Source of the DNA: Lentisphaerae bacterium ADurb.Bin242
GTDB taxonomy: Bacteria; Verrucomicrobiota; Lentisphaeria; Victivallales; UBA1829
Direction: 5' to 3'
NCBI GenBank assembly: GCA_002069785.1
Contig: MWCA01000007.1
Coordinates: 1-64,000, forward strand
DNA: 64,000 nucleotides
The notes under the pieces: model-generated
What the model was told of the DNA's origin: nothing
Databases searched by the model: none
What the model saw: only the letters and a program-made list of their open reading frames with translations
Shown here: piece by piece, positions 46,142 through 61,802 of the stretch
How the letters are laid out: each line of letters begins with the position of its first letter
Numbering within the stretch: the stretch's first letter is position 1
Translations under genes and position numbers: made by a program

Positions 46142-46867
46142 TCATTTTGTGAACAAAACACCGGTTTCGGACCGGTAGGTACTGACATATTCAAAGGCTT
46201 TTCTGACATTGCACCCCAGAACGGTCATATCTGTAAAGCACATATTCATTTCACCGCAATGGCGTGCCCCGAGATAGGAAAGATTATCTCCTTGATAAGA
46301 AAAGTAGAAATAGTTGTTCTGAGGCCTCGGATTCTGGCCCGCTGAATCAATCGTGTCTCCCAGCATCAGACTTCTGGTGCGGATGCTGTTTATGAAAATA
46401 TTCCGGTACCTCGCGCTGTCGCAGTAGGCAATATTGTATGGTGCGTTATAATTTGCCGTATTGGGGAAAATGAGCATGCCGTAGAGATACAGGCGGACTT
46501 CTGAACGGTAGGACAGAGTGCCCGCCTGAGGCATGGGATAGGTCGGACATCCGAATTTCTTATATCCTGCGAAAGTCCGGACCTGTGTCCTGTTGATGGA
46601 AGGCAGACCGGAATACGGACCCAGAAAGTCGAACCAGTCATTTTTTTTGGAGTCGGCATCTCCATAGGCGGGAATCCAGCCGCGGTAGTCTCCGGCATAT
46701 TGCGTGGCAATCAGTCCGGTCTGACGAATCTGGTTTTTGCACAGGACAGAAACAGCCTTGTTTTTTGCGGAATTCAGCGCCGGGAGCAGCAAGGATGCCA
46801 GAATTGCGATGATCGAAATTACGACGAGGAGTTCTATAAGAGTGAATCTGGACTTATTGGCGTTCAT
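46142..46867 (-). CDS. Pseudopilin-like protein
   Basis: A 241-aa pseudopilin. The N-terminus [18 protein letters not shown] places Phe8 at +1 with Arg (not Gly) at -1, followed by [17 protein letters not shown]. The C-terminal motif is degenerate: [17 protein letters not shown] keeps the His and Asp of H-x9-DG but has Met for Gly. The ATG at 46867 has GGGAGG upstream and overlaps the end of the glycosidase gene by 14 bp. It is the last gene of a GntR-glycosidase-pseudopilin operon. Confidence 0.88.
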
Positions 46868-49190
46868 TTTTTCCTCCCGGATGAATTGTTTCAAATTCAT
46901 AAACGTGAACTTCGTACGGCTTGAAGGCGTCCGTGAATCCATTCTCCGTCACGAAGATGGACCTGTTTTCAAAGAGAACTTTTCCAGGGCGAAGGCCGGT
47001 CAAGGCGAAACTTGCGGTGACATTTTCTTTTGAAGAATTGGCTGCAAGGAGAAACGTTTTTCCATCCGCCTTTTTCAGCAGAACATTCATGGAGGGGTTT
47101 CCATCGGAATCCAATTCAGGACCGCTGAGAATTTCCGGAGGAGGAGGCTGAAGCCCTTTCTTTTCCGTCAAAACATTATAAAGAACACTCAATTCCTTTG
47201 CCAGTGCCAATATGTCCTTCCGGCGTTCAGGGGTGCTGAAAGCGCTTATATACGAATTCCAAACGATTCCATTAGCCCCGTGGATGATGCAAAGGTATGT
47301 CATCAGCCTCAATTCCTCCTGTGTCGGGTAACGTGTCCAGATCGGCGGCAGCATAAAGGCCTGCGGGGCAGCCAGAATGATTTTGGGCGCATGTCCTGAA
47401 ACGCGAATGTCGCGCAGGCATGTCCTGACATCCGAAATGACCCGCTGCGGACCGTTCCGGATGGCCGCATATTTGTCGCTGATCGGATACAATTGCGGCA
47501 GAAACACATCCGAGTATGGCACGTACTGCTTATAGTTGGACGAATAAGAACAGAGAGGCGCCTCCGATTGCATGCCGAGCAGACCAGGGGCAAAAGATTT
47601 TGCATAACTCTGGAACGATGAAAGTTGAGACGGGGAGAAGCGGTTTGTATCGTCCGCAAGATACATGCCTATCACGGATGAGCTGTTTCTGAACTCGAAA
47701 AGCCAATATCGGATACACAGCATGATTCCATATTTTTCCGCAGCCGGAATCAGTTCTTTGACATCCGGCTTCCCCAGATAACTTTGGAGAAAATTGACTC
47801 CGCAACTTTTCAGTTCCGCGAGGGCGGAATCGTAGTTGAACTGGTTCTGCGGAAATTTTTCGATGGTAAAAAAACCGATCGGAAAAAACGGCTTGCCGTT
47901 CAGCAGAATCAATCCGTCTTCCCTTTGCGTGACAACATTGCCAGTGAATGAAGAACCGATGAAACAGTGCCGCGTTACCGTATGTTTGTTGCCGGCAAGG
48001 TCTTCGACTGTAAAGGTAAAAGCATTGACCCCGGACTGGAGCGGCACGGACGGCTTCCAGGTCAATGTGTCGCCCTTGCGGACAAGAGCTTTTGTCAGAT
48101 CGGCTTTGTTTTGCTCCATGACGCATTTCAGGGTTGACCAATTCACACCGGTTTCGTCGGCAATTTTGAAAACGACAGGCGCATTTGGATTTTCAACGGG
48201 GGATTCGCTGATGCGTTCGACTGTCGGCGGTTCACGGTCGATACCGTAATGCCAGCCCGAATCAACGGCCGTCCCGACCCGGATTTGGCGCAGAAGGGGT
48301 GTCTGTCCTTTCGAAGAGTTCAATATGACACGGCAGCGTATCCATGTATGTTCCGGTTTTGCAAGACGGATGGAAGTTCCGGTTTCGGTGTAAAAACTTT
48401 CATTTTTGCCGTCAGGACCATAAAAAGCGCTCCAGTTTCCGGGGCGTCCGTTATTGTCCGCCGCACTGGAAAGTTGAATTCTGACGGAACTCCCCGGAGG
48501 ACATTCCGCATTCCATGTGAGTTTTGTATTCTCTTCAGCGGGAATCGGACGGGAAATGAATTCGGCCGATTCTCCGTATCTGGGAAGGTCTTCCATCAAT
48601 CTCACTTTCACCCGGCTGAAGGCAATAGAATCGTCCTTTCCGATCGAGGGGCCGCCGCCCAGTTGAACCACAAGAAAAACCGCCCCTTCCGGCACTTTTC
48701 CTCGTATTTTGTTATGCAGCCACTCTTTTGAAAGACTTTCATAATAGAAATAATCGACGTCCCCGATTGGTTTTCTATTTTTATCAAGCCACTGGAGCTT
48801 GTTCGAATAGTTTTTACGTCCCCGCGCATTATGCATTGAAAAGGTGCCTTTGACATCCATTTCAAGAATGAAATCCCTCCCGGGCTGAACGGGAACCGGC
48901 GGTGTGAGGACAGACCATGCCGTCTCTTTGCTTCCTGGTTTTGAGGTTACAGTCAAACATGGGCGTCCGTTGTATTTCCGGACATTGAAGATGGATGAAT
49001 TTTTATAGTTGTAAGCGGGGATGGTCATGGAGGGGGAACCGGTAAAATTTTCCTCATATGCCACCCGGCCGACCTGTTCAATCGCTGCCCCTTCTGCCGT
49101 AAACGCAATATCTTTCTGCGAAGTTACCGCGGCCCCGTAAAGTCCGGTCAAGGCAATCCATGCAAAGGCGCCTGATAACAGTTTAATCAT
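46854..49190 (-). CDS. Secreted glycoside-hydrolase-like protein
   Basis: A 778-aa exported protein: signal peptide (residues 1-20, ending LTGLYGAA), N-terminal beta-sandwich modules with carbohydrate-binding character (about 50-220), Ig-like segments (about 230-430) and a C-terminal barrel opening with [22 protein letters not shown], as in GH2/GH42-type enzymes. The catalytic acids were not identified. It begins with ATGA overlapping the regulator's stop and has AGGAG eight bases upstream. The neighbouring genes suggest polysaccharide breakdown at the cell surface. Confidence 0.78.
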
Positions 49191-50491: not shown

Positions 50492-50600
50492 GACCGGTGC
50501 AGAACGAACCTCATGAAAATGGATGGAGCATCGGAGGGAAGAGAAAAATTCCGGGAAATTTCCTTCCCTGCGTTTATACGCCATGAAAAGTTTTTTCAGA
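50492..50600. repeat. 109-bp dispersed repeat, copy A
   Basis: 91% identical (99/109, no indels) to 56597-56705, in the same orientation. It lies 16 bp beyond the stop of the minus-strand gene at 50617. It contains a GGGAAG/CTTCCC-based hairpin. Nine of the ten differences are transitions, and changes fall in all frames, so it does not look protein-coding. Confidence 0.8.
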
Positions 50601-50616
50601 GTCATAAAAAATTTCG

Positions 50617-51537
50617 TCACTTCAAAACAGAAAGGAGTTCACCGGCGAGGCACAGCGCGGCCTGGGCAATTGCCTCCTTCGCGGCGACTTGATAGGTCAC
50701 CCCCGCGAGCCGTTCCTTTTGAGCGCCGGAAGCCAAAAGTTTCTCTCCCTTCACGGCAATGACCTTCAACTCGATCCGCGCCGCCGCCGAAATGAATTTT
50801 CCGTAGGCGGGAGCCTGTTCGGCGAAGGCTTCTCCGGTGACGGTGAATTCCGCGTCCTGCCGAGAGGGAACGATTTTGAATCCGAGGGCAAGCAGCAATC
50901 TTTCGATTTCCGTCTGGGCCGCCGGATCGGGCGTCGGCAAATTGATGTTCTCGGTGATTTTCACATAAACCGTGCGTTGTCTGCCTTGAACGGTCTGTGC
51001 CAGCGTTTCAGCGACGCTCTTTTGATTCAGCGGCGAAGGCAGCAGGATTTCACCGCGCTTTTCCAGCAGAGCGATGACTTTTTTGCTCAATTCCGGAATC
51101 AATTCCGCCGGAGTGGATTTTCCGCCGGCGCTGGCTCCGACGACCCGGCTGGTCTCCGTGCCGATCACTTTGGCGACGACAAAGGTCTTGTCTCCGGATT
51201 TGAACACCGAACCGGCGATCAGGATTTTCGCACCGACGAGACGCCCCAACTTCACTTGAGAATCTTTATCGACCAGTCCGACGGCGGAAAGATGCAGTTC
51301 CATCAGCGCCTTGTCGAGTTCGGCGCGCTCGACGGTATTGGTTCCGCGTTCCATCAAAGCAACGCTCAGAAGCTCCGCCACGGATTTCCCCGCCGCGTCA
51401 TCCTCGAAAACGCGGCCGCGTCCCTCGAACGGCAGCACCGCCACGGTCGGAATGAATTGAATCGGCTCCGGAACTTCCTCTGCGAACATCCCGGTGAGCA
51501 TACCGCCGCACAACAGCGTAAACAGCATTTTTTTCAT
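50617..51537 (-). CDS. CsgG-like exported protein
   Basis: A 306-aa exported protein with a signal peptide (MKKMLFTLLCGGMLTGMFA) and a CsgG/TolB-N-like domain (residues about 30-170): TVAVLPFEGRG, SVALMERGTNTVERAELDKA, KLGRLVGAKILIAGSVF. CsgG-type proteins act in outer-membrane secretion or sense envelope components. No lipobox cysteine is obvious after the signal. It is the last gene of the sigma/anti-sigma operon, overlapping the previous gene by four bases. Confidence 0.82.
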   Translation of the reverse strand: MKKMLFTLLCGGMLTGMFAEEVPEPIQFIPTVAVLPFEGRGRVFEDDAAGKSVAELLSVALMERGTNTVERAELDKALMELHLSAVGLVDKDSQVKLGRLVGAKILIAGSVFKSGDKTFVVAKVIGTETSRVVGASAGGKSTPAELIPELSKKVIALLEKRGEILLPSPLNQKSVAETLAQTVQGRQRTVYVKITENINLPTPDPAAQTEIERLLLALGFKIVPSRQDAEFTVTGEAFAEQAPAYGKFISAAARIELKVIAVKGEKLLASGAQKERLAGVTYQVAAKEAIAQAALCLAGELLSVLK

Positions 51538-52223
51538 TTTTGTTTTTCCTCCGCGAGTTGTCTGATGAAAAGCACATTGTCTATTTGATCCAAATCGAAT
51601 TCCGGCGTGAATACAACGACTTTTCTTTTTCCATCGCGCAACACAACATAACTAAAAGTGCCGCGCAAATCCAGGACTTGTTCCTTTTTATCATATAAGA
51701 CGCTCAAAGAACCTGGATTCTTAGCGCAATGAAGGGAGATTTCTTTCCTGTTGCCGGCGATATTCAATGGAAAATCGCGTTTGTCAGGAAACAGCAGAAT
51801 CCGTTCATTATTGAATTGATTCGGCCATTGGCTTGTGACCAGTAATGCTCCGGGATGAGCCAATGGAGGCTCCGCAAGCAATCCGACGCCATATCGATGC
51901 AGGGTTGACACTCTTCGGCCAGCCGTGTTGTCCGAGACCATTGTAAGCCCGATCAGCGGTTTGGGAGAATGAAATTTGACTTTCTGTCTTTTCTCACCGC
52001 ACGTCAATACCGCGTCCAGCGTGGAACCGTCTTCCAGAGCCGGAAAATGAATTTTCACGTCTCCATTACCGGAGGACAATATTCTGCCATGTTCAGCGGC
52101 GAGAATCCACGCGCCGTTTCCCGGGAGTGTTTGTTCGCGTCCCGACCAGAGGTCGGTCACATCGTTTTTCTGCGCCAAAAGCAGCAGCGGAAGAAAACAA
52201 AACAGGATGACTTGTTTTCTCAT
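51534..52223 (-). CDS. Exported protein of unknown function
   Basis: A 229-aa protein with a signal peptide (MRKQVILFCFLPLLLLAQ) and a beta-rich remainder (IHFPALEDGSTLDAVLTCGE, EISLHCAKNPGSLSVLYDKK). Residues near 120-160 read RYGVGLLAEPPLAHPGALL and NERILLFPDKRDFPLNIAG. No family recognised. It is flanked on both sides by CsgG-related genes with four-base overlaps, so it probably belongs to the same envelope complex. Confidence 0.75.
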   Translation of the reverse strand: MRKQVILFCFLPLLLLAQKNDVTDLWSGREQTLPGNGAWILAAEHGRILSSGNGDVKIHFPALEDGSTLDAVLTCGEKRQKVKFHSPKPLIGLTMVSDNTAGRRVSTLHRYGVGLLAEPPLAHPGALLVTSQWPNQFNNERILLFPDKRDFPLNIAGNRKEISLHCAKNPGSLSVLYDKKEQVLDLRGTFSYVVLRDGKRKVVVFTPEFDLDQIDNVLFIRQLAEEKQK

Positions 52224-55200
52224 TTTGCCGGCTCCTCTCCCCGTATGACGAACAGCCATTGTTCGTTGATAAACACAACATGATTACCGGCCTTATGCAG
52301 ATTGAAACATGGCGGCAGCAGCAAAACCGGCGATTTTTCCGGATGCTCCAGATTCAGACAAAACGGCCGGGATCCGGCGATGAACAGCCAATTTCTCTGC
52401 CGGAAAAAGTGCTGGTCCGCGTTACGGAACGGGTATTGCGTATCGAAGAAAAGAAATGCATTACTCAGAAGACATTGCGGCATGATTCGCGGTTTGTACG
52501 GGGAAAATCCGAGCAGAAAATTCAGCTTTTCACTGTTCGGTTCCAGACAGCTGAACTGATAAGCCGGATTGGTCGATGTAAAATAGAGCGTACCGTCGAT
52601 GACGGTCGAGCGCACAACAGAGACCGGGAACGACAGCACTTTCTGAAACGAACGCCTTCGCGTGTGGTATTTCCAGACCGCTCTTTCGGAAAAGAACACC
52701 AGTTCATTCTCACCGAACGCCCGCAATCCCGTATAAAGTTCGATCTGCGCCGCGGTGAAATCCAGCGGATTCCGTTTCTCGACACGCTCCGTGCTGAAAA
52801 TGGTTTCCCGTCCGGCGCCGTCAAAATCATAAGAAACAAGAGCGGATGCGCCATGCCGTTTTTCCCGTGTCCGAGTCTCCCCCGCAAAGGCGGCACGCCC
52901 GGAACCCAGCAGATAAATCCGGTTGCCCTGAATCGCCGCGCCGGATGGATGGATTCCGCCGAGCGGATCATCCGCCATCTTCATGCGGTTTTCTTTCCGG
53001 TCGTACATCCGCAGTGTATTGCGGTCGACGACTGCCACAATTTCATCCGATGCTGCGAGATAAACGGATGCCCCGCGTTTGGGATACAACTCCGTATTCA
53101 GCGGAGTCAAAGACTTCAGCTCGCCCAGAATGCGGCATTGATCCGGCAGCGTCACTTCCGCGAGAAAAAAGCGGTTCCCCGCCCGGCGAAGCACGGCAAA
53201 GAGTTTCCCTCCGGAGACATCGGACGCGATGCATTCAACGGTTTCGTTTCCGCTTCCGGTCAACTCCCGCCATGCAATCCGCCGGACTTGCAAATCGCGG
53301 TTCAGCTGGGTGAACAACCGCTGTTTCAACCCAAGGATCGCCGGAGTGTTTCCCGATTCCGAAAAAATGACTTCGCCAAGCTGGGTGAACCAGTCGTTCG
53401 TCTGTTTGGAAAAAACCCGCTGCCTCGCATAGTCTGTCAGAGGGTCCCGGAACGCAATCAGTTTTTCGAGGGTGTTTTCGTCCGTGGAACGGGAGAGGTT
53501 TTCGATCCATTCCCGGATATGGCTGTTTGCGTCCCGGTTCGGATTCAGTTTCCTGGCGCGTTCCCGGATCAGATGGGCGACATTTCGCGGCGTGTTGTCT
53601 CCGGTGTACGCCGTCAGAAAATAAAACGTCCGGTTGTTGATGTTCTGAACCAGGTTTTCCGGCATCAGACGGGTCTGTTCGATTTGCGGCAAGGCTTCCG
53701 GATCGCATTTTGCCAGCTCCTGCAAATAATGGTCGATTTCCGGGATCAGCGCCGCCGGAGTGCGCGGTTTATCCAGAAGCCGCGCCAGAAAACGGATTGC
53801 GATGCATTCGTAACGGAATGCCGTGATTTGCGACTTTTCCAGAAAATCAACGATCGGCAAGGTTTGACGGATATACGGTTCCCACTCTTTCTGCCGGGCG
53901 AGTTCTCCCCGCATCAGGTGTCCATGATATAAAGCGAGTATGGAGTTCACCCGTTCCGCCTGCTCCGGATGCCTGCGGATAAACGCGTCCACCGCCGGAA
54001 AAAATTTCCGGTATTCCTCCAGGTTTTCGTTCAATTCTCCTTCAAGGTCGATCTCCAGCAGAAAAGGTCCGAACCATGTACGCCTGTTATACTGTATCAG
54101 GTCCGCGATGTTCTCCATGCGCTCGGGAAGCGGTGAAGGAAAAACCGTCCTGCGTGCGGTGCTTCGGAAGCGGCGGAAAGTTTTTCCCAGCCGGCACAGT
54201 TCTTTCCGGCCGGAAGCCGTCATATCCTGCAACTGGGCGCGGTTTTTAACCGTAAACGCTTCGCAGAGAGCGGTAAATGCGATGCGCATTCTTTCCGCAT
54301 CGGGATATGCCGCAATATATGCTTCATAATGATTCATCAGCTCTTCCATAGCCCGGATTCGTTCGGAATTCCACGGCATCGATGTACAGAGTTTGGTCCG
54401 GATCTCCAATTCAAGCAAACGGAACGCTCCGTTCTGCGGTTCCAGCGCGAGCGCCGAATGAATCCGGCTCAACGCCTCCCCGCAGCGTCCGTTCCGGAAA
54501 AGCTCCATGCTCTCGCGGGCGAACTGCATCCCCTCGGAGGAACGCTGTTCTTGTACCGGCTCGGTAATTTTTTGGTAAAGTTCTTTTCCGCAAACAATGG
54601 CCTGTTCATCGCATTTGTTAAATACATCGTGGACGTTCACTCTGCCGACGATCCGGCGGTCAAGCGTGAGAATCAAAATCCTGGCATGCGTCTTATCCCC
54701 GGTGCTTCCGGGCTCGAATTCCAGCGTCAGCAGTCTTGCGGACGGGGTGAGCGCAAAGACGGGGCCGGCAAGTTCGCGTTCCGTGTTTACCGCGTCGAGC
54801 CGGGCGCGTTCGAGCATCTGAATTGCGGGAAATTTCATCAACACCTGTTCCAGGTGCATGACGAAATCCTCGATCTTCGGCTTCAACTTCCCCGGCACCC
54901 CCACATCCCGCACCGACACGATCGAGAGATACAAGGGATCTTTCACGGCAAGTTTATTTTTCGCCTTGAGAATTTTTTGCGCGGCATCCTCCGGGGAATC
55001 GTCCCACAGCCGGAATCCGTTTTTCGCATTGAACACCACCAGCCGTTTTTCCGTCAGAACAGCAAAGAGATCGGTATGCGGAAAACAGCGTCTCAGCACT
55101 CCGGCGCTGAAATCGGACGACGACAGGCGCTGTTCCTGCAGCACCTTGTCGATTTCGGCGCGTTCCAGCAGGTCGAATTGGTCATTCGCACTCAATTCCT

Positions 55201-55300
55201 CCATGGTTTTGTCGCAAAGCGGGCGATTGCCCAGCAGCGCCAGCTTCACCGGAGAAGCGGCGGCGGAGAGGCAAAGAAAAAATATCCAGACCCATCTCAT
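52220..55300 (-). CDS. Large exported protein with CsgG-like, TPR-like and propeller-like regions
   Basis: A 1026-aa exported protein (signal peptide MRWVWIFFLCLSAAAS). Near the N-terminus two CsgG-like LLERAEIDKVLQEQ and MLERARLDAVNTE stretches occur (about residues 45-60 and 165-180). Then comes a TPR-like RIHSALALEPQNGAFRLLELE region and a long helical middle. The C-terminal 400 residues look like a beta-propeller (VYLAASDEIVAVVDRNTLRM, AIQGNRIYLLGSGRAAF, ENELVFFSERAVWKYHT). The start at 55300 has GGAGG ten bases upstream. It has no recognised family as a whole. Confidence 0.75.
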   Translation of the reverse strand: MRWVWIFFLCLSAAASPVKLALLGNRPLCDKTMEELSANDQFDLLERAEIDKVLQEQRLSSSDFSAGVLRRCFPHTDLFAVLTEKRLVVFNAKNGFRLWDDSPEDAAQKILKAKNKLAVKDPLYLSIVSVRDVGVPGKLKPKIEDFVMHLEQVLMKFPAIQMLERARLDAVNTERELAGPVFALTPSARLLTLEFEPGSTGDKTHARILILTLDRRIVGRVNVHDVFNKCDEQAIVCGKELYQKITEPVQEQRSSEGMQFARESMELFRNGRCGEALSRIHSALALEPQNGAFRLLELEIRTKLCTSMPWNSERIRAMEELMNHYEAYIAAYPDAERMRIAFTALCEAFTVKNRAQLQDMTASGRKELCRLGKTFRRFRSTARRTVFPSPLPERMENIADLIQYNRRTWFGPFLLEIDLEGELNENLEEYRKFFPAVDAFIRRHPEQAERVNSILALYHGHLMRGELARQKEWEPYIRQTLPIVDFLEKSQITAFRYECIAIRFLARLLDKPRTPAALIPEIDHYLQELAKCDPEALPQIEQTRLMPENLVQNINNRTFYFLTAYTGDNTPRNVAHLIRERARKLNPNRDANSHIREWIENLSRSTDENTLEKLIAFRDPLTDYARQRVFSKQTNDWFTQLGEVIFSESGNTPAILGLKQRLFTQLNRDLQVRRIAWRELTGSGNETVECIASDVSGGKLFAVLRRAGNRFFLAEVTLPDQCRILGELKSLTPLNTELYPKRGASVYLAASDEIVAVVDRNTLRMYDRKENRMKMADDPLGGIHPSGAAIQGNRIYLLGSGRAAFAGETRTREKRHGASALVSYDFDGAGRETIFSTERVEKRNPLDFTAAQIELYTGLRAFGENELVFFSERAVWKYHTRRRSFQKVLSFPVSVVRSTVIDGTLYFTSTNPAYQFSCLEPNSEKLNFLLGFSPYKPRIMPQCLLSNAFLFFDTQYPFRNADQHFFRQRNWLFIAGSRPFCLNLEHPEKSPVLLLPPCFNLHKAGNHVVFINEQWLFVIRGEEPAK

Positions 55301-55869
55301 GACAGCTTGTCCTCCGTATAGTGATTTCGACCCTGTCTGACGACCGGTATCGCGGTACGAATCCGTTTGCCGTCTACGCAAAGTTCCAAATCCAGCACCA
55401 GCGTCGAGGCGTCGAGGCGCGAAACCACCACCGCGCCGGAAAGGGACGGATTTTCCACCGTGATCGAATCGTCGTCGGAACACGCCAGCGCCAATCTTAT
55501 TTTTTTCCTGCCCACATCCAGAATGATGTCAATGAAGTTGTTCGGGCGCTCCAATGAATCCCGTTCCCCGGTAACGAGTTCGTTTTCGAGAAACAGCACC
55601 GCCGCATCGCTGCCGAACAACCGGACCGCCTCCGCCAATTTCGTATCCGTTTGCATGGTATTCCGAAGCGGCAGCATCAATGCCGCCGTCACTCCGGCGA
55701 CGATCAGAAAGCCGGCCGCCCACGCAAGATAGTGGGATTTCCGTTCCGGGCGTTCGGCCACTTTGTTGAAAAAATCGGCGGCGAATTCTTCCGGCGTTTT
55801 GCGAAATTCAACCGAGGCCGATTTCTTCAAATCGAGCAGTTCATCCAGTTGTCTGTCATTCATCTTCAT
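55297..55869 (-). CDS. Putative membrane-bound anti-sigma factor
   Basis: A 190-aa single-pass membrane protein. A short cytoplasmic N-terminal part (residues 1-46, rich in charged helices), one membrane helix (about 48-68) and an exported domain of about 120 residues match the architecture of ECF anti-sigma factors. It overlaps the sigma gene by 14 bp and the large exported protein by four. No conserved anti-sigma zinc motif is visible. Confidence 0.72.
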   Translation of the reverse strand: MKMNDRQLDELLDLKKSASVEFRKTPEEFAADFFNKVAERPERKSHYLAWAAGFLIVAGVTAALMLPLRNTMQTDTKLAEAVRLFGSDAAVLFLENELVTGERDSLERPNNFIDIILDVGRKKIRLALACSDDDSITVENPSLSGAVVVSRLDASTLVLDLELCVDGKRIRTAIPVVRQGRNHYTEDKLS

Positions 55870-56485
55870 TCCTCCGTAACGCTTCTTTCAGGAGTTTTTT
55901 GGCTTTATGGATCCGCTGATAAAGCGTGTTGGCCGAACACCCCAGTTCCCGTGCGGCGCTTTCGCCGTCCAATTCACTCAATACGGCGATATGGATGGTT
56001 TCACGGTAAAGTTCCGGCAAGGCGGCAATCGCGTCATCCAGTCGGCACAATGCCGGATTTTCCGTATCGTCTCCATCTGGACGATACAGCGCGAGTTTCT
56101 TTTGTTCCCGTATTTTTTTGCGGAGCAGATCGTAGCTTTCGGTCACTACGATCCGGGAAATCCAGCCGGACAACGCCGCCGGATCGCTCCGAAAACTTGT
56201 CCGCCGATTCCAGGCCTTGAGTAAAGCGGATTGAACGGCGTCGTCCGCATCGGCGGCGGAATGGACGATTTTTACGGCGATCGCCCGGTACAAACCAAGT
56301 TTGCTTCGAATCAAATCGGCAAAAATATTTATTGATTCCTTGTCCGTCAAAGCCGCCAATCCCCATTGTTTCGATTTTCCTGATAAGACGTTCCGGAAAC
56401 GCGTTTTCTTATTCTGTTTTGCGAGTTTTCCGGAAAACTTATCATAATGTAATATATCTTTTGACAGAAAAGAAAGCAATCCCAT
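55856..56485 (-). CDS. ECF-type RNA polymerase sigma factor
   Basis: A sigma-70-family protein of the ECF class. Region 2 is YRAIAVKIVHSAADADDAVQSALLKAW and region 4 is LDDAIAALPELYRETIHIAVLSELDGESAARELGCSANTLYQRIHKAKKLLKEAL (given here as landmarks AIAALPELYRETI, GESAARELGCSANTL and RIHKAKKLLKEAL). The start is unclear: ATG at 56485 has no SD, and a promoter-like TTGCTT-17-TATATT at 56479-56451 lies downstream of it. TTG at 56350, nine bases after GGGGA, would give a 164-aa protein of normal ECF size. Confidence 0.82.
   Translation of the reverse strand: MGLLSFLSKDILHYDKFSGKLAKQNKKTRFRNVLSGKSKQWGLAALTDKESINIFADLIRSKLGLYRAIAVKIVHSAADADDAVQSALLKAWNRRTSFRSDPAALSGWISRIVVTESYDLLRKKIREQKKLALYRPDGDDTENPALCRLDDAIAALPELYRETIHIAVLSELDGESAARELGCSANTLYQRIHKAKKLLKEALRRNEDE
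56451..56479 (-). promoter_or_regulatory. Putative promoter of the sigma/anti-sigma operon
   Basis: Minus strand TTGCTT (56479-56474), 17-bp spacer, TATATT (56456-56451). If used, the sigma factor must start downstream of the 56485 ATG. Confidence 0.35.
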
Positions 56486-56596: not shown

Positions 56597-56705
56597 GACC
56601 GGTGCGGAACAAATCTCATGAACATGGATGGAGCATTGGAGGGAAGAGAAAAATTCCGGGAAACTTCCTTCCCTGCGTTTATGCGTCACGGAAAGTTTTT
56701 TCAGA
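56597..56705. repeat. 109-bp dispersed repeat, copy B
   Basis: Second copy of the element at 50492-50600, same orientation, 91% identical. It overlaps the stop codon of the FAD-oxidoreductase gene (ends 56701), so both copies lie at the 3' end of a minus-strand gene. Confidence 0.8.
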
Positions 56706-61040: not shown

Positions 61041-61802
61041 TTATTTGAAGATAATGCCGGTGGAGCGGTCGTATCCGCAACGATCAATATTGGTGGATGT
61101 CAGGACTGCGTAAACGTTTCCTTGATACAGGCTTCCGACAAGTTTCGACTCCACATGTCCGTCCAGATACATGATATTGGTCGTTCCCCTGGAGATGGGC
61201 AGCGGATCGGAATAGATCGGATTGACCCGTTGATCTTTCATTCCATGCCGGTAAGAGAAGGCTTGGATGAAGATCGTTCCGTAGATGGTGCGTTCGGAGG
61301 AATCAGCGCCGTAGATCGCGATCGAGGGCTTCTGGACAAGACTGAGTTTGCGGATTTTCTGTTCGTTGACATTGACCGAGTTATAAACGCCGCACAAACC
61401 CGTATTGACCAGGTAGTGGGTGAATCCGAACAGACCGTTGACGGCGTTCCCCAATGCCACCGGTTCGGAAGGACAGGTGAACGAATTCGCCTTGGATTTG
61501 TAGTTCACTCCATATCCGTATTTAGACAGCACACCATACCAGATGTAACCGGGACTGTAGTTCGGGGGGACAAAGCCGGGCAGAAGCGCGGGAAGAATCC
61601 ATTCGTTGAAGTCGTCGGAATACATCTTCTGCGCCAGCCCGATGGCTTTTTCATTGTTCATGCATGAAATCGCATAGGCCTTCTGCTTTGCGGTATTCAA
61701 CGCCGGAAGAAGTATTCCCGCCAGAATGGCGACGATCGCAATGACGATGAGGAGTTCTACCAAAGTAAAAAATGGAACAGCAGACCGTGTTTTTCTTTTC
61801 AT
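61041..61802 (-). CDS. Pseudopilin-like protein
   Basis: A 253-aa pseudopilin. MKRKTRSAVPFFTLVELLIVIAIVAILAG places Phe12 at +1 and Glu16 at +5, with Phe (not Gly) at -1 (written here in two parts: PFFTLVELL and IVAILAGILLPALNTAK). The C-terminal part contains SRGTTNIMYLDGHVES. It is the first gene of the pseudopilin-glycosidase-FAD oxidoreductase operon. The SD is weak (GAG about nine bases upstream). Confidence 0.9.
   Translation of the reverse strand: MKRKTRSAVPFFTLVELLIVIAIVAILAGILLPALNTAKQKAYAISCMNNEKAIGLAQKMYSDDFNEWILPALLPGFVPPNYSPGYIWYGVLSKYGYGVNYKSKANSFTCPSEPVALGNAVNGLFGFTHYLVNTGLCGVYNSVNVNEQKIRKLSLVQKPSIAIYGADSSERTIYGTIFIQAFSYRHGMKDQRVNPIYSDPLPISRGTTNIMYLDGHVESKLVGSLYQGNVYAVLTSTNIDRCGYDRSTGIIFK

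Follow-up and report, generated by a model that had tools for sequence, protein, structure and literature searches.

A sigma factor operon encoding a CsgG-family protein and carrying a candidate promoter within a reading frame in a Lentisphaerae draft genome

The analysis of a 64,000-nt stretch of contig MWCA01000007.1 (hereafter the window) from the 5.97-Mb draft genome of Lentisphaerae bacterium ADurb.Bin242 identified an operon of five genes. In order, these encode an extracytoplasmic function (ECF) sigma factor, a one-helix membrane protein that is likely an anti-sigma factor, and three proteins designated X, Y and Z, of which Z belongs to the CsgG family. We consider it probable that the operon constitutes a sigma switch which mainly drives its own genes, with a promoter embedded in Y giving extra Z. 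The direct evidence comprises the gene order and its conservation, the confinement of two promoter-like sites to the operon, and the synonymous-codon pattern at the embedded site. By inference, the sigma factor would recognise both sites, the membrane protein would act as its anti-sigma factor, and X, Y and Z would act jointly in the periplasm and feed back on the switch. A broader proposal, of a superphylum-wide and operon-private ECF circuit in the Planctomycetes-Verrucomicrobia-Lentisphaerae lineage, in which a codon-embedded promoter sets the ratio of regulator to product and which builds an undescribed periplasmic machine of CsgG-fold, immunoglobulin-like (Ig-like) and propeller parts, is more tentative, and we would put it at somewhat below an even chance.

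The five open reading frames were all present in series on the minus strand, and the overlaps of 4-14 bases reported in the original prediction were confirmed as 14, 4, 4 and 4 bases (stop and next start: 55856 and 55869; 55297 and 55300; 52220 and 52223; 51534 and 51537). The first gene was correctly recognised as a sigma factor gene. Its product matched Sigma70_r2 (PF04542; 48.4 bits, 8e-13), Sigma70_r4_2 (PF08281; 34.3 bits, 1.8e-08) and a generic ECF sigma model of NCBIfam above its cut-off; no region 3 was reported in the Pfam search, leaving regions 2 and 4 only, as in ECF sigma factors. The start originally placed at 56485 is probably too early, because the relatives in an alignment of 12 sigma orthologues start approximately 42 codons later and because the first promoter-like site (56384-56411) would lie inside the longer frame. 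A TTG codon at 56359 or 56350 is the probable start. The second gene encodes a 190-amino-acid protein whose single hydrophobic stretch begins near residue 46 (hydropathy, computed for the window's copy alone). Homologues of this protein adjoin sigma in relatives, and it is likely to be the anti-sigma factor of this sigma. In L041 and L097 (1785-2114), the sigma and anti-sigma matches share one frame of 109 amino acids, and Y, Z and both sites are retained; this copy looks truncated or fused.

A homology search for the gene set found it to recur across several phyla. By sequence comparison, it is present in Victivallales and, in a divergent form, in Planctomycetota, Verrucomicrobiota and Kiritimatiellota. 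Y was present in 18/137 genomes of the order. Among 16 loci around Y hits, a sigma match was found in 14, one of them a mere fragment. The order in those 14 loci was sigma, second-protein homologue, Y and Z, although the Z of one locus is cut short. Between zero and three X-type proteins, or a different large gene, stand between these genes, and some loci have more X-type genes downstream. The best 80 of 104 loci from a search with a Z alignment included Victivallis vadensis DSM 14823, other Lentisphaerae, Planctomycetota, Verrucomicrobiota and Kiritimatiellota, and the remaining titles say merely 'bacterium'. Where over 3 kb of sequence was available upstream of Z, a same-strand sigma gene lay no more than 7 kb upstream of Z in 15/18 near and 31/48 distant loci. 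Three near loci were scored as lacking sigma (L111, L113 and L105); in V. vadensis (L111) the sigma gene lies just past the 7-kb limit, and the L113 piece begins after sigma, which the same contig shows in L034. In 28/31 of the distant loci with sigma, a gap of 1.4-2.2 kb separated sigma from Z, and two genes occupied the gap in 6/7 distant loci read in detail. The Y-position protein of these six loci matched the Y profile over the N-terminal 78 columns (probability 95.9, E 5.5e-9), and their protein in the anti-sigma position gave a weak profile match confined to residues 1-32 (probability 70). No description of the gene set was found in the open-licence literature that was searched.

The promoter-like signal, TAAGA[A/T]-N14/15-CGTCTTA, was derived from the upstream regions of sigma in relatives. 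Under a relaxed pattern, the bipartite site or a close variant was found in 18/18 compared sigma loci at 52-86 bases before the start codon, a count that is descriptive, as the relaxed pattern came from the same 18 regions. The spacer was 15 in 11 loci and 14 in 7, and CGTC was invariant. The comparison left out L044 and L153 as near-duplicates of L038 and L112, respectively, L105 and L117 for want of a sigma match, L102 and L108 because of a doubtful start, and loci within L097-L116 that repeat an already counted locus; L102 and L108 gain the site once the start codon is moved. The searches of the source genome and the counts over the genome set were tests not used in making the pattern. The exact site matched twice in the draft genome, both times in the operon, with no match for the reversed control and none in 100 shuffles of the window. 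When up to two mismatches were allowed to TAAGAA-N15-CGTCTTAT, the source genome contained 2 exact, no one-mismatch and 14 two-mismatch sites, against 56 matches for the control. Within the order, a strict match was seen in 14/18 Y-bearing genomes versus 11/119 genomes lacking Y. The match totals, by our own tally, were 34 versus 8 for the reversed control in Y-bearing genomes, and 13 versus 70 in Y-less genomes. In the distant loci, AAGA[A/T]-N14-16-GTCT[A/T]A, a pattern adjusted after inspecting those same regions, was found up to 200 bp upstream of sigma in 10/33, compared with a resampled mean of 0.01 and with 0.23 for random windows.

The second exact site lies within the Y reading frame, where it reads GCT AAG AAT ... 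AGC GTC TTA. An embedded site was observed in 7/26 Y genes with the exact pattern and in 10/26 with the relaxed one, and the pattern had been fixed from the sigma upstream regions before the Y sites were noticed. Across 2,000 synonymous shuffles of the Y genes, the corresponding means were 0.01 (maximum 1) and 0.08 (maximum 2). The ten embedded sites begin 183-210 bases ahead of Z. The codons GCT, AAG, GTC and TTA were kept in all seven site-bearing Y genes examined; as these genes were chosen for having the site, the figure is descriptive and partly produced by that choice, and the shuffle test is less biased. The facts fit a promoter for Z that is maintained by selection on the DNA. No embedded site was identified in L098, L110 or L043, where another gene stands between Y and Z, and several loci with Z directly next to Y are also without it.

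In the proposed mechanism, the one-helix membrane protein would keep sigma inactive until an envelope condition frees it. Sigma would then use TAAGAA-N15-CGTCTTA before its own gene, leading to transcription of sigma, anti-sigma, X, Y and Z. It would also use the signal inside Y, and the resulting short transcript, with Z as its first gene, would raise the ratio of Z to the regulators. Once exported, X, Y and Z may form or service a periplasmic complex, the state of which could be reported to the anti-sigma factor, and this loop would restore the supply of the complex.

The signal also occurs elsewhere in relatives. Exact sites precede X-type genes (by 34 and 111 bases), a V-type gene (by 114), a gene for a DUF1570 protein (by 39), that of an 827-amino-acid lipoprotein-like protein in G134 (by 42) and a divergent lipoprotein-like gene (by 129). 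Other extra sites, in L081, L082, L085, L087 and L093, are intragenic or without an obvious target. In three Y-less genomes (L078, L095 and L096), the signal precedes a different, sister ECF sigma gene, and in L078 (3215-5620) the partner of this sister sigma is a fusion with VWA and YfbK_C domains. A second, divergent signal in L037 (10324-10351) lies approximately 93 bases from the sigma-proximal one and faces a lipoprotein-like gene of 213 amino acids; divergent copies are present in L038 and L044 as well. As the signal precedes X-type and other likely exported proteins in several relatives, a wider regulon would be of an envelope type. The operon could alternatively represent an envelope stress response resembling RpoE-RseA-RseB, with Y or Z bound to the anti-sigma factor as a co-sensor and with a broad regulon, reached through weaker sites, as the actual output. 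The order logic is that of sigma, a membrane regulator and then likely periplasmic proteins, and the targets in relatives include X-type, V-type and lipoprotein-like genes. However, exact (spacer 14 or 15) and one-mismatch (spacer 15) sites are confined to the operon in the source genome, and Y has no RseB family match. We regard this explanation as unlikely.

The protein X is predicted to have CsgG-like and propeller-like parts, as had been proposed. The match to the CsgG Pfam family was sub-threshold (16.6 bits, below the cut-off), and the N-terminus of X is hydrophobic. A structural model with a mean predicted local distance difference test (pLDDT) score of 81.0 and a predicted template modelling score of 0.66 gave a predicted fold in which two alpha/beta modules are followed by an extended helical region and a propeller. 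Foldseek analysis of this model returned Kelch and WD propellers, mostly with target template modelling scores of about 0.5. A CsgG match at E up to 0.1 was present in 8/15 X proteins, and the X profile matched the Z profile (probability 95, E 3.9e-8), with part of the alignment being signal peptide. X is rare: six relatives were returned from 5.8 billion proteins, in a search in which scoring was limited to the 7,994 candidates with the most shared words. On contig C90 of the source genome (L006, 5562-8627), a 774-amino-acid protein with a weak Kelch match below the cut-off is followed by an X that runs off the contig end. Y matched no Pfam family above cut-off, RseB/MucB included. Its model (mean pLDDT 87.8) has an Ig-like N-terminal sandwich, and the fold comparison indicated a generic Ig-like sandwich. 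Neither Y nor Z has a 19-residue window exceeding 1.6 on the scale used for hydropathy, and both are predicted to be exported from a reading of their N-termini by eye. A second X-Y-Z set, without sigma, anti-sigma or a promoter-like signal, is present on contig C67 of the source genome (L007, 5267-9536), and the embedded site is absent from its Y.

The last gene had been described as CsgG-like, and Z indeed scored 33.1 bits against CsgG (PF03783; cut-off 20.8). All 15 Z proteins matched this family at E up to 0.1, and the two Z copies were the only CsgG-family matches in the source genome at E up to 0.001. Together with the CsgG-like modules in X, this score is what a CsgG-type secretion system would predict, in which Z or X would be a sigma-controlled outer-membrane channel for export of a substrate. 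Against this, the pore-hairpin stretch comprises 41 residues in each of the 15 aligned Z proteins, compared with 88, both hairpins included, in E. coli CsgG, and the alignment of the Z profile to CsgG is weak (probability 23) and ends ahead of the hairpins. Judged from this length and alignment, Z would not have room for the two pore hairpins of CsgG. The lipobox cysteine (lipoprotein signal) is absent from this Z, and CsgE and CsgF had no match in the draft genome (91.5% complete), with the E. coli control matched. We consider secretion improbable. The original prediction that this could be a new envelope sensing or secretion system is partly supported. Its first part fits a set that was not recognised, is spread over several phyla and has no description in the open-licence literature searched; the second part is weakened because Z is too short for the pore hairpins and CsgE and CsgF are unmatched in the draft genome. 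For the same reasons, the set did not prove to be a known curli system. No gliding family was among the Pfam and NCBIfam rows listed, and no search was aimed at gliding proteins. The combination of a CsgG fold without hairpins, an Ig-like part and a propeller would favour a binding or scaffolding role over a channel.

The TAAGA...TCTTA pairs could in principle be operators of a dimeric repressor rather than sigma promoters, since the half sites are inverted repeats of one another in most Victivallales copies. However, the symmetry is broken while the core is kept (CGTC in 18/18, the symmetric T in 13/18), the variants CGTCATA, CGTCCTA and CGTCTAA occur, the distant loci keep AAGAT/GTCTAA, and CGT is the usual ECF -10 core (PMC8103513); a repressor is thus very improbable. 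It is also very improbable that the site inside Y reflects a constraint on the protein (A-K-x-P-G-x-L-S-V-L) and no promoter. In favour of such a constraint, many Y proteins conserve the peptide and TTA is a common leucine codon in some genomes (75/308 in L034). Against it, shuffles that preserve the protein almost never yield the site, and TTA makes up 2% of leucine codons in the operon (5/237), V. vadensis (5/246) and L106 (~2%), yet stands at the site in each of them.

Several observations weigh against a sigma switch acting chiefly on its own genes. The second protein matched no known anti-sigma domain and has no Pfam family above cut-off. The signal has the CGT typical of an ECF -10 box but is without AAC, the usual -35 element (PMC8103513). 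Over all 137 genomes, the reversed control was commoner (78) than the signal (47), and isolated matches in other genomes may therefore be due to chance. In nine distant genomes, picked for having a sigma-proximal site, AAGATT-N13-15-GTCTAA gave 11 matches and the control 11, with 7/11 of the matches sigma-proximal. Even the relaxed embedded site is lacking in 16/26 Y genes, and no embedded site was found upstream of Z in any distant locus; the embedded site is thus not universal. In 17/48 distant Z loci there was no sigma within 7 kb, and the sigma-Z distance correlation (r 0.80, 33 distant loci) is confounded by species phylogeny. The second, sigma-less set in the source genome indicates that X-Y-Z can exist outside the switch. 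Finally, the draft genome is 91.5% complete with 5.1% contamination, in 303 contigs.

The coordinates of the features are given in Table 1. A direct repeat of 109 bp with 91% identity brackets the operon, at 50492-50600 (beyond the Z stop) and 56597-56705 (upstream of sigma). Only these two copies were found in the draft genome, which suggests that the operon was inserted or duplicated as a unit. Prepilin-like genes lie on each side of the operon, at 46142-46942 and 61041-61802, with the N-terminal methylation motif below cut-off; their neighbours encode large proteins without any family above cut-off.

Table 1. Features of the operon in the window, with the basis for each assignment.
Feature	Position	Strand	Basis
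Promoter-like site 1, TAAGAA-N15-CGTCTTA, upstream of sigma	56384..56411	-	Exact pattern match
ECF sigma factor gene (TTG start inferred; open frame continues upstream)	55856..56359	-	Pfam and orthologue alignment
Likely anti-sigma factor, 190 amino acids, one transmembrane stretch, ~120 amino acids predicted periplasmic	55297..55869	-	Hydropathy; homologues beside sigma
X, 1026 amino acids, predicted exported, three-part	52220..55300	-	Relatives, predicted model, propeller and CsgG matches
X residues 17-245, two CsgG-like alpha/beta modules	54566..55252	-	Second module assigned from a motif together with predicted strands
X residues 253-666, predicted helical repeat region	53303..54544	-	Predicted model
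X residues 670-1020, predicted beta-propeller	52241..53293	-	Model; Kelch and WD propeller matches
Y, 229 amino acids, predicted exported, predicted Ig-like N-terminal domain	51534..52223	-	Relatives and model
Promoter-like site 2, within the Y reading frame	51696..51723	-	Exact match; 5' end 186 bases before Z start
Z, CsgG family	50617..51537	-	Pfam match; 41 residues versus 88 in E. coli CsgG

The envelope biology of Planctomycetes and Verrucomicrobia is poorly understood, and Victivallis vadensis DSM 14823 provides a named-organism handle on a conserved module with an exact promoter candidate. The Y gene would carry two codes in one stretch of DNA, with a likely sigma promoter inside a protein reading frame and synonymous-codon evidence for it. 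If true, a sigma factor mostly serving its own operon would question the view of alternative sigma factors as regulon-wide controllers.

Among known systems, the curli channel CsgG (E. coli K-12, b1037) shares its Pfam profile with Z in the N-terminal part, whereas Z is without hairpin room or a lipobox and is linked to a sigma factor, in a genome with no CsgE or CsgF match. LpoB, FlgO and the TolB N-terminal domain are CsgG-fold proteins without a pore. The Z proteins match these at E up to 0.1 (LpoB 15/15, FlgO 11/15, TolB_N 5/15), although the window's Z is below the LpoB and FlgO cut-offs and TolB_N is unlisted for it. The RpoE-RseA-RseB envelope stress operon consists of sigma, anti-sigma and exported proteins downstream. 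The present operon follows this logic, and differs from it in the lack of an RseB match, in its three different exported proteins and in its promoter. A further likeness is to ECF sigma and anti-sigma pairs (sigma-70 group IV; PMC8103513 and PMC7406223), with which the operon shares a sigma factor of regions 2 and 4 only, an adjacent membrane protein, CGT as the core of the candidate -10 element and likely positive autoregulation. It departs from these pairs in a candidate -35 element of TAAGAA or AAGAT rather than AAC, in a partner with no recognised anti-sigma domain, in a second promoter-like copy in coding sequence, and in exact sites that, in the source genome, occur in its own operon only. 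ECF circuits are a known kind, and what is unusual here is the combination of nearly private sites, a likely promoter within coding sequence and an apparently undescribed set of envelope genes.

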